Part shown: positions 32,515-37,464 of the stretch, one piece after another
Layout: the number at the start of each line of letters is the position of its first letter
How positions within the stretch are numbered: position 1 is the stretch's first letter
Origin: Streptomyces sp. 846.5
Lineage (GTDB): Bacteria; Actinomycetota; Actinomycetes; Streptomycetales; Streptomycetaceae
Assembly: GCF_004365705.1 (NCBI RefSeq)
Contig: NZ_SOBN01000001.1
Span: 3,830,001 to 3,894,000, forward strand
Direction of reading: 5' to 3'
Length of the DNA: 64,000 nucleotides
The notes under the pieces: generated by a model
Database searches by the model: none
Seen by the model: only the letters and a program-made list of their open reading frames with translations
What the model was told of the DNA's origin: nothing
Program-made: the position numbers and the translations under genes

Positions 32515-32612
32515 GGGCACTCCTGGGCGCGTACGCGCCGGTTGCGACGACGGTTGGGACGGTTGGACGCAGTGCTCTCATCGCAGCCACCCTAACGCTC
32601 TGCGGCGAAGCC

Positions 32613-33380
32613 TTACAGGGAGTCGCGCCGAGCGGGAATCGGCAGGATGTCGGCATAGCCGATGAGGGTGCCCTCGGCGCTCTCACCGCAGAGTGCGGCC
32701 ATCTGCCGGAGCGACTCGCGGTTGTAGTCGATCAGCATCCGGTGCACCGTGTCGCGGTCCTTGGCGACCAGATGCTCCATCAGTTCCCGGTGCCCGGACC
32801 AGCAGTAGTCGGCTATGTCGGGACGGCCGCGCAGATAGGGCGCCGCGAAGATCCAGTACTGCACCCTGAGCCAGTCCAGGTACCCGGTGAGCCTGGCGTT
32901 GGCGACCAGGCCGGCGAACTCTCCCCAGAACCGCAGGTCGCAGCCGACCAGCACGTCCAGGTGCCCGGCCCGGGCCGCACGGTAGGCGGCGTCGGCGCGG
33001 CGCTGCAGCGAGGGCAGCCGCTCCCAGTCGATCGCCTTGAGGTGGACCGCCAGGCGGCGGAACATCCCGTCCGAGACCAGGGTCCTGGCCTCGACGATGT
33101 CGACGAAGTCGTCCCAGCCGAGCCGGGGGACGGTGAAGCCGCGGTGGTGCTCGGTCCACAGCAGGCCCTGGGCGGTGAGGTCGAGCAGCGCCTCCCTGAC
33201 CGGGGTGGCGGACACCCCGTACAGCTCGGCGATCTCCTTGACGGTGAAGTGCGATCCGGCCGGGAGCCGGCCCGCCATCATCTCGTCGCGCAGGGCGCCC
33301 GCGACCTGCTCGCGCAGACTGCTGCGCCGGAGCGGGGTGTGCGACGCGTGCGGTCCCGAGGACGGCAGGTCGGACGGCAC
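32613..33380 (-). CDS. GntR-family (FCD-type) transcriptional regulator
   Basis: 255 residues. The winged helix is REQVAGALRDEMMAGRLPAG then VKEIAELYGVSATPVREALL; residues 110-240 are the all-helical FCD ligand domain with metal-binding-type residues (EARTLVSDGM, DLRFWGEFAG, SGHRELMEHL). It lies directly downstream of the class III aminotransferase and probably controls it and itself. GTG 33380 has GAGGAGGGG 5 bases upstream. A GGTCTAGACC palindrome is 90 bases upstream. Confidence 0.93.
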   Translation of the reverse strand: MPSDLPSSGPHASHTPLRRSSLREQVAGALRDEMMAGRLPAGSHFTVKEIAELYGVSATPVREALLDLTAQGLLWTEHHRGFTVPRLGWDDFVDIVEARTLVSDGMFRRLAVHLKAIDWERLPSLQRRADAAYRAARAGHLDVLVGCDLRFWGEFAGLVANARLTGYLDWLRVQYWIFAAPYLRGRPDIADYCWSGHRELMEHLVAKDRDTVHRMLIDYNRESLRQMAALCGESAEGTLIGYADILPIPARRDSL

Positions 33381-33467
33381 GACCCCTCCTCGGGTGGGCT
33401 TCAGTGGTTCGGGCCTCCCAAGGGTAAGGCCCCGAACCCGAGGAAGCATCGGAATTCGGGGCCAAAA

Positions 33468-33479
33468 TGGTCTAGACCT
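33468..33479. promoter_or_regulatory. GntR-type operator palindrome (TGGTCTAGACC-T)
   Basis: GGTCTAGACC (33469-33478) is a perfect 10-base palindrome between the aminotransferase and GntR genes. TGGTCTAGACCT differs at one base from the DasR site core TGGTCTAGACCA, and also fits general GntR half-sites. It could be the binding site of the adjacent GntR protein or of DasR. Confidence 0.65.
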
Positions 33480-33519
33480 TATGTCGAAACAGTAAAGATC
33501 ACCTGAAAGTAACCCCAGC

Positions 33520-35427: not shown

Positions 35428-36030
35428 TCAGCCCTCCAGCAGTCGGTTCGCAAGGCGGGCCTTGGCCTCGGGCCACTCGTCCACCAGCATCGAGAAGTAG
35501 ACGCTGTCGCGCCAGGACCCGTCCGCGCGCAGCCGGTGCCGCCGCAGCACGCCCTCGCGCTGCGCGCCGAGACGGGCGATGGCGTTCTGCGAGCGGGTGT
35601 TCAGGTGGTCGGTCTTCCACTGGACCCGGCCCATGCCGAGGTCCTCGAAGGCATGGGTGAGCAGCAGCAGCTTGGACTCGGTGTTCACCGCGGTACGCCA
35701 GACCGAACGGGCGTACCAGGTCCAGCCGATCTCCAGCCGCTCGTCGAAGGGGGCGATGTCGAGAAAGGTCGTCCACCCGACCGGCATCCCGGTCGACAGA
35801 TCGATCACCGCGAACGCGACGGCCACACCCGCCTCCACCTCCGCGAGCCGCCCGTCGAGCAGCTCTCCGAGCTCCTCCTCGCTCTGCGGCGCAGTGACCG
35901 TGAGCCACCGCCATACCTCCTCGTCCCGCCCCCCGGCCAGGAACAGCTCCTGCAGATGATCGCGGGACAGCGGCTCCAGGCGGACATGGGTTCCGGTGAG
36001 CGTCGTGGACGCGGGTCTCTTCGCAGGCAT
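35428..36030 (-). CDS. RimJ/RimL-type GNAT acetyltransferase
   Basis: 200 residues. Starts with the RimJ/RimL-like TGTHVRLEPLSRDHLQELF; core EIGWTWYARSVWRTAVNTES and the HAFEDLGMGRVQWKTDHLNT-like segment with SQNAIARLGAQREGVLRRH are typical of this subfamily. The protein may acetylate ribosomal protein N-termini or a small molecule. First gene of a two-gene operon with the next GNAT. No ribosome binding site; -35 TTGCGC and -10 TACTGT (17-base spacer) end 6 bases before ATG 36030, so the mRNA is probably leaderless, and a palindrome lies in the promoter. Confidence 0.92.
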   Translation of the reverse strand: MPAKRPASTTLTGTHVRLEPLSRDHLQELFLAGGRDEEVWRWLTVTAPQSEEELGELLDGRLAEVEAGVAVAFAVIDLSTGMPVGWTTFLDIAPFDERLEIGWTWYARSVWRTAVNTESKLLLLTHAFEDLGMGRVQWKTDHLNTRSQNAIARLGAQREGVLRRHRLRADGSWRDSVYFSMLVDEWPEAKARLANRLLEG

Positions 36031-36048
36031 GGTCAGACAGTAGGCAAT

Positions 36049-36088
36049 GTTTGAACTAAGCGCAATTGACTTCTGCACTAGTTCAAAC
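36049..36088. promoter_or_regulatory. Inverted repeat in the promoter of the GNAT operon
   Basis: GTTTGAACTA (36049-36058) and TAGTTCAAAC (36079-36088) are perfect 10-base inverted repeats separated by 20 bases. One arm lies between the -35 and -10 elements of the operon, the other upstream of the -35, as expected for a repressor that binds two sites. Confidence 0.75.
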
Positions 36089-36177
36089 TGGCCCACCTCC
36101 CCCGACCGCAGAAAACCGAAGACCCCGCCCGCCCACGACATGGGCGAACGGGGTCAACGACAGAAGCACCGCACCAC

Positions 36178-37464
36178 CTACGACAGGAACGACCGAACCT
36201 GGATCGTCTCCGTGCGGCCCGGGCCCACGCCGATGGCGGAGATCGGGGCGCCCGACATGTCCTCCAGGGCCTTCACGTACGCCTGGGCGTTCTTCGGGAG
36301 GTCCTCGAAGGTCTGGGCCTTGGTGATGTCCTCGGACCAGCCCGGGAGGTTCTCGTAGATCGGCTTCGCGTGGTGGAAGTCGGTCTGCGAGTAGGGGAGT
36401 TCGTCCACCCGGCGGCCGTCGATCTCGTAGGCGACGCAGACCGGGATCTGCTCCCAGCCGGTGAGCACGTCCAGCTTGGTGAGGAAGAAGTCCGTCAGGC
36501 CGTTGACGCGGGTCGCGTAGCGGGCGATCGGGGCGTCGAACCAGCCGCAGCGGCGGTCGCGGCCGGTGGTGACGCCGCGCTCGCCGCCGATGCGGCGCAG
36601 CGCGTCGCCGTCGGCGTCCAGCAGTTCGGTCGGGAACGGGCCCGAGCCGACGCGGGTGGTGTAGGCCTTGAGGATGCCGATGACCCGGTCGATCTTCGTC
36701 GGGCCGATGCCGGAGCCGGTGCAGGCGCCGCCGGCGGTCGGGTTCGACGAGGTGACGAAGGGGTAGGTGCCGTGGTCCACGTCCAGGAGGGTGCCCTGGC
36801 CGCCCTCCATCAGCACGACCTTGTTCTCCTCCAGGGCCTTGTTCAGGACCAGGACGGTGTCCGCGACGAACGGGCGCAGCTTCTCGGCGTAGCCGAGGTA
36901 CTCCTCGACGACCAGGTCGACCGGGACCGCGCGGCGGTTGTAGAGCTTGACCAGGATCTGGTTCTTGTCGTGCAGCGCGGCTTCGACCTTCTGCAGCAGG
37001 ATGCTCTCGTCGAACAGGTCCTGGACCCGGATGCCGACCCGGTTGATCTTGTCGGCGTAGGTCGGGCCGATGCCTCGACCGGTGGTGCCGATCTTGCGCT
37101 TGCCCAGGAACCGCTCGGAGACCTTGTCCAGGGTCCGGTGGTACGGGGTGATCAGGTGCGCGTTGCCGGAGACCAGGAGCTTGGAGGTGTCCACGCCGCG
37201 GTCCTGCAGACCCACCAGCTCGGAGAAGAGCACGGCCGGGTCGATGACCACGCCGTTGCCGATCACCGGCGTGCATGTCGGGCTGAGAATGCCCGAGGGA
37301 AGCAGGTGCAGTGCGTACTTCTGATCGCCTACGACCACCGTGTGACCGGCGTTGTTGCCACCCTGGAAGCGGACTACGTAGTCGACCGAGCCACCGAGGA
37401 GGTCGGTGGCCTTCCCCTTGCCCTCGTCGCCCCACTGAGCGCCGACCAGCACGAGTGCGGGCAC
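36178..37464 (-). CDS. purA: Adenylosuccinate synthetase
   Basis: 428 residues. It joins IMP and aspartate with GTP to adenylosuccinate. [17 protein letters not shown] is the GTP P-loop, [11 protein letters not shown] and [15 protein letters not shown] follow, and [19 protein letters not shown] and the [10 protein letters not shown] loop are conserved. GTG 37464 with AAAGGGG about 10 bases upstream. The next gene to the right is divergent. Confidence 0.98.

Follow-up and report, generated by a model that had tools for sequence, protein, structure and literature searches.

The window, a stretch of 64,000 nucleotides (G000 C1:3830001-3894000) from a genome of 9.03 Mb in five contigs, carries from left to right a bldC-like gene, a dehydrogenase gene, purM, purF, purL, purC, purD, a 5.4-kb spacer, purA, fba, pyrE and clpB, with dnaA (G000 C1:4078902) located approximately 212 kb to the right of purA. 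Profile scans, a BldC-like reading frame and a clpB match above its cut-off bear out the gene order given in the original prediction, which ran from bldC and a vdh-type dehydrogenase through the pur genes to purA, fba, pyrE and clpB. The BldC-like frame was matched by a motif taken to be that of BldC. The whole clpB gene extends past the window (G000:C1:3893533-3896154; TIGR03346, 1282.5 bits, cut-off 1232.1). The features are as follows.

8989-9375, minus strand: short bldC-like gene (motif match; stop-to-stop frame, true start inside)
10832-11980: Glu/Leu/Val-type dehydrogenase (profile scan; best match ScyB, below the cut-off)
12729-14276, minus strand: purM (TIGR00878, 417.9 bits)
13916-15529, minus strand: purF (TIGR01134, 522.5 bits)
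20189-23026, minus strand: purL (NF002290, 1027.5 bits)
24665-25579, minus strand: purC (NF010568, 405.4 bits)
29375-30739, minus strand: purD, phosphoribosylamine-glycine ligase (TIGR00877, 470.7 bits, cut-off 288)
30740-30924, no strand: purD/SLATT intergenic stretch, intact in the window and homologous to one Streptomyces inversion breakpoint
30925-31803, plus strand: SLATT_2-domain protein, conserved purD neighbour (PF18183, 327.7 bits)
31867-32520, minus strand: conserved protein of 217 amino acids, family not recognised (no profile match; best matches 69% in G009 and 70% in G101)
32613-33617, minus strand: GntR/FCD regulator (PF00392 and PF07729; start codon uncertain, overlaps the next gene)
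33520-34875, minus strand: class-III aminotransferase (NF004718, 801.5 bits, cut-off 472)
34953-35453, minus strand: GNAT acetyltransferase (PF00583)
35428-36141, minus strand: GNAT acetyltransferase (PF13302)
36178-37548, minus strand: purA, adenylosuccinate synthase (NF002223, 635.7 bits, cut-off 402)
41314-42423, minus strand: fba, class II fructose-bisphosphate aldolase (NF006628, 475.4 bits, cut-off 297)
44675-45211, minus strand: pyrE (TIGR00336, 126.8 bits, cut-off 106.8)
63533-64000, minus strand: 3' end of clpB, which extends beyond the window end

In the spacer between purD and purA, the SLATT, 217-amino-acid and GntR genes are conserved neighbours, not newcomers, and the aminotransferase also occurs in several relatives. 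A SLATT gene takes the same position in eight uninverted and three g14 genomes of the tree sequence set described below, and in those genomes it stands divergent to purD, apparently as its lone conserved neighbour. The SLATT_2 domain is named after defence-associated effectors. A class-III aminotransferase gene also lies between purA and purD in a Nanopelagicales metagenome-assembled genome (MAG; L057), and one is found 3' of purA in the distant actinomycete MAGs L057, L033 and L046 (ahead of purD in L057), which makes it look like an old neighbour.

The arrangement of purA and purD was scored in 121 genomes of the family, representing 17 genera, in which purA, purD and dnaA were located and purD was called adjacent when it lay less than 25 kb 3' of purA on the same strand. 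We take genus g9 to be Streptomyces and g14 to be Kitasatospora, and guess g1 to be Streptacidiphilus; g6 is Actinacidiphila, a name tied to it by A. alni, whose coordinates are identical as G032 and as G268. The two genes were adjacent in 66 genomes, far apart on one contig in 24, on different contigs in 27 and close in another arrangement in two, with purD unmatched in the remaining two. The genomes in which they were far apart are confined to g9 (10) and g14 (14), and these two genera account for 51 of the 55 genomes not scored adjacent. With g9, g14 and g10 set aside, the remaining 14 genera had 63 adjacent genomes out of 66, the other three being uninformative (purD unfound in two, on another contig in one), so that every informative genome of 14 of the 17 sampled genera has the order of the window. 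The genus of the window itself contributed 13 adjacent genomes out of 14. In one member of g9, G044, purA is turned, so that it and purD are on opposite strands with 12.8 kb between them (C1:6.83-6.85 Mb), and dnaX and recR are together; its dnaA is 3.4 Mb away, which reflects either a permuted assembly or a rearrangement on a far larger scale.

Outside the family, 137 genomes of the class were scored, adjacency being defined as within 20 kb in the same orientation. The two genes were adjacent in 96 of the 137, or in 96 of the 108 with both on one contig, although this share could fall to 96/124, because 16 more genomes carry them on different contigs; the remaining cases comprised eight with the genes far from each other (families f4 and f36 only), four close but otherwise oriented and 13 unmatched. 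Accordingly, purD just 3' of purA on the same strand is a class-wide, though not universal, actinomycete neighbourhood. A further 80 named purA loci, unevenly drawn and reaching 10 kb to each side, included 25 with purD after purA on the same strand (among them Nocardiopsis, Frankia, Modestobacter, Nocardioides, Cellulomonas, Actinacidiphila alni and Streptomyces mashuensis), in some of which the run carries on to purC, purL, purF and purM. Two had purD on the other side and strand, 13 ended too soon, and 40 extended at least 9 kb beyond purA without purD, nine of the latter belonging to Streptomyces group L009-L027. The loci without purD also include Agromyces, Microbacterium, Rhodococcus and Nonomuraea, and since Microbacteriaceae, Arthrobacter, Corynebacterium and Bifidobacterium are among them, the neighbourhood has been lost in several lineages. 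Because the adjacency is spread over distant orders, with the same aminotransferase in L057, it is far likelier to be old than to have been gained repeatedly; together with the tallies, this indicates that the window has the family's ancestral order and that the order in Streptomyces is derived.

To resolve the event that separates the two orders, genes were matched reciprocally between the origin regions (480-620 kb) of four genomes: G000, two members of g9 (the inverted G009 and the uninverted G112) and G101 from g14. Apart from rearrangements at about 3.90-4.03 Mb, the gene order of G112 broadly follows that of G000 in this region. The interval 3.861-4.344 Mb of G000 corresponds to 4.784-4.322 Mb of G009, for the most part as a single reversed run that has some smaller rearrangements inside it and spans the SLATT gene, purA, clpB and dnaA up to 4.344 Mb of G000. 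A single origin-spanning inversion thus separates the window from the S. coelicolor type, as had been proposed. In G112, purD(-) lies beside SLATT(+) at 2.759 Mb, and dnaX(+) is followed by ybaB(+) and recR(+) across the origin at 3.137 Mb; in G009, purD(-) lies beside dnaX(-), 92 bp apart, at 4.299 Mb, and SLATT(-) beside ybaB(+)-recR, 89 bp apart, at 4.784 Mb. Turning the piece between the purD/SLATT and dnaX/ybaB breaks of G112 yields the purD/dnaX and SLATT/ybaB junctions of G009, so that one flip accounts for all four. purD and the SLATT gene are likewise neighbours in G000 and G101, and the counterpart expected on the other replichore was recovered in G000 as an intact dnaX-ybaB-recR cluster at approximately C1:4392097-4395522.

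With dnaA as the mark of oriC, the distances from the origin to the G112 breakpoints are about 197 and 179 kb, giving similar arms, and those of G009 about 203 and 281 kb; the inverted piece measures about 378 kb in the present-day uninverted g9 genome. In S. coelicolor, recR and ybaB are presumably SCO3618 and SCO3619, the latter annotated merely as 'hypothetical protein'. The accessible portions of the literature give dnaZ (dnaX) as SCO4067 (PMC6344877) and purD as SCO4068 (PMC7674942), numbering that is consistent with the inverted junction, and the numbers on which the original prediction relied for purA, purQ, purL, purF, purM and dnaA are likewise in print there (PMC6344877). The stretches scanned contain no tRNA gene between the junction genes. 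A tRNA-Ser(GGA) gene lies just upstream of dnaX in G112 and G000 and beside dnaX in G009, having been carried along by the inversion.

The 121 family genomes scored above were also used to locate recR and dnaX (dnaX in 119), which were scored as together when within 6 kb on one strand; this was the case in 86, with 15 not scorable. dnaX lies beside purD in 20 genomes, all from g9, and all 20 have recR less than 25 kb from purA; among the 27 g9 genomes, 20 thus have dnaX cut from ybaB-recR, four keep the cluster and three were unscored. None of the 121 family genomes combines purA-purD adjacency with dnaX at purD. A FastTree tree of 29 genomes, built from a single linked group of four genes (purD, purC and two more beside them), unites all 18 genomes that carry the inverted label in one clade (support 1.0), two of the labels being indirect (G088, with recR near purA only, and G024, in which the contig ends about 0.8 kb past purD without a SLATT match). 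Its sister group (0.995) consists of the uninverted G112 and G097 together with G044. In this tree, which omits six of the 27 g9 genomes, among them G103 (adjacent) and G115 (close, other arrangement), and includes the two indirect labels, the inverted state has a single origin.

Almost certainly, then, an inversion within Streptomyces cut purD from the SLATT gene and dnaX from ybaB, and the window retains the ancestral order, inherited unbroken and free of a breakpoint. The original prediction had placed the inversion in the lineage of the window and its breakpoint at 32600-36200, and is partly supported as a whole: its inversion exists, but the outgroup and family tallies contradict a derived order in the window, and the site homologous to the Streptomyces break is purD/SLATT at about 30740-30924, outside that interval. 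It remains true that one inversion links the two orders and that several lineages of the class also lack the purA-purD adjacency, both of which an older S. coelicolor order would accommodate. Such a polarity is nevertheless extremely improbable, given the window order in every informative genome of 14 of 17 family genera and, beyond the family, in 96 of the 108 genomes that are informative. The original prediction had itself named a wide spread of this adjacency through the family as the observation that would refute it, and that spread is what the tallies show. The S. coelicolor type moreover requires dnaX to be cut from ybaB-recR, and the two are together in the 86 family genomes noted above and in 65 of 97 bacterial genomes according to the available part of PMC1193525. 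The chance that a misassembly near 33-36 kb brought purA to purD is negligible; no point in favour of it was found, the adjacency recurs in 13 of 14 genomes of the genus (the exception has no purD match in an assembly that is 76% complete), and the near-equal purD-purA spacing of three of its genomes (5441 bp in G000, 5502 bp in G002 and 5491 bp in G019) makes an artefact unlikely.

The spacer has been broken at least twice: Streptomyces has a break at purD/SLATT, and the Kitasatospora-like G101 has one beyond the GntR gene. This could be taken to mean that the inverted order is an old one that has flipped back many times at exactly the same junctions. This recurrent flipping is very improbable, as the inverted genomes form one clade and g14 has other breakpoints, keeping dnaX and recR together in 24 of its 27 genomes (three unscored). 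purA is beside purD in none of the 27 g14 genomes (far apart in 14, on different contigs in 13); since g14 keeps dnaX-recR, it must have separated purA from purD by breaks other than those of Streptomyces. One inversion shared by the Streptomyces-like and Kitasatospora-like genera was rejected for these reasons, and also because g14 groups with the genome of the window (support 0.998). G101 itself has several rearranged blocks, and its interval C1:3.72-4.32 Mb shows many of them around the origin, with purF/purM and the dehydrogenase gene moved off purL-purD, requiring several inversions.

In this account, the ancestral actinomycete order clpB-pyrE-fba-purA-spacer-purD-purC-purL-purF-purM passed to the window without a break. 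Within Streptomyces, breaks at purD/SLATT on one side of the origin and at dnaX/ybaB on the other allowed the piece between them to turn. As a result, dnaX came to lie beside purD, the SLATT gene (with purA) came to lie beside ybaB-recR, and dnaX was parted from ybaB-recR. The ends may have been broken at two replication forks and then joined together, and end-joining of fork breaks has been proposed for other origin-symmetric inversions. Comparison of the breakpoint regions in the present-day G112 and G009 revealed only short weak matches, and repeat-mediated inversion was given less weight as a candidate, although ancestral repeats could have decayed. As no strong repeat pair was found at the breakpoints, the inversion probably arose by end-joining of fork breaks rather than by repeat recombination.

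Origin-centred inversions are known in streptomycetes, and PMC8743542 compares 20 closed genomes by dot plot; as in the Streptomyces inversion described here, the inverted piece contains oriC and has two arms of similar length. However, the available part of that paper does not name the breakpoints and polarity of this inversion, of which the window represents the uninverted state. The dnaX-ybaB-recR cluster described in the accessible portions of PMC9610160 and PMC1193525 is the same in the genome of the window, where it is intact at about C1:4.392-4.396 Mb, but is cut in 20 of 27 g9 genomes into dnaX-purD and SLATT-ybaB-recR. No description of the breakpoints of this inversion was found in the literature searched, including the available parts of PMC8743542, PMC9610160, PMC1193525, PMC4255298, PMC4398421, PMC6344877, PMC9282665 and PMC7674942. 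A plasmid search returned two matches, neither of them useful. Pelaez et al. (2001) is reportedly the paper on Streptomyces recR.

The finding as originally posed for the window is ordinary, namely a conserved ancestral neighbourhood, and the mapped inversion that cuts dnaX from ybaB-recR adds modestly to what is a known kind of event. It corrects the use of S. coelicolor numbering as the ancestral order, the model genus being the rearranged one, and offers a natural example of a widely conserved replication-repair cluster that was cut and then kept cut. It is conceivable but rather unlikely that two core functions were rewired when the inversion took place at the base of the main Streptomyces clade, leaving the expression of DNA-repair and purine genes coupled to replication differently from that in relatives. 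If so, recR-ybaB would have lost transcription through dnaX, and purD would have gained a clamp-loader gene upstream.

dnaX beside purD provides a gene-level marker for the main Streptomyces clade. Sixteen of the 80 named loci were traced by genome search for dnaX and recR, seven of which were not scorable; dnaX lies beside purD in five (S. xanthochromogenes, S. sp. NK15101, S. silvae, S. phaeoluteigriseus and S. cirratus). No recR match occurs near purA within the 10 kb on each side covered by the 80 named loci. Four of the traced genomes keep dnaX-recR (S. iranensis, S. mashuensis, S. sp. AJS327 and Actinacidiphila alni). In G055, two dnaX matches were observed on different contigs, reflecting either a duplicate or an assembly effect.
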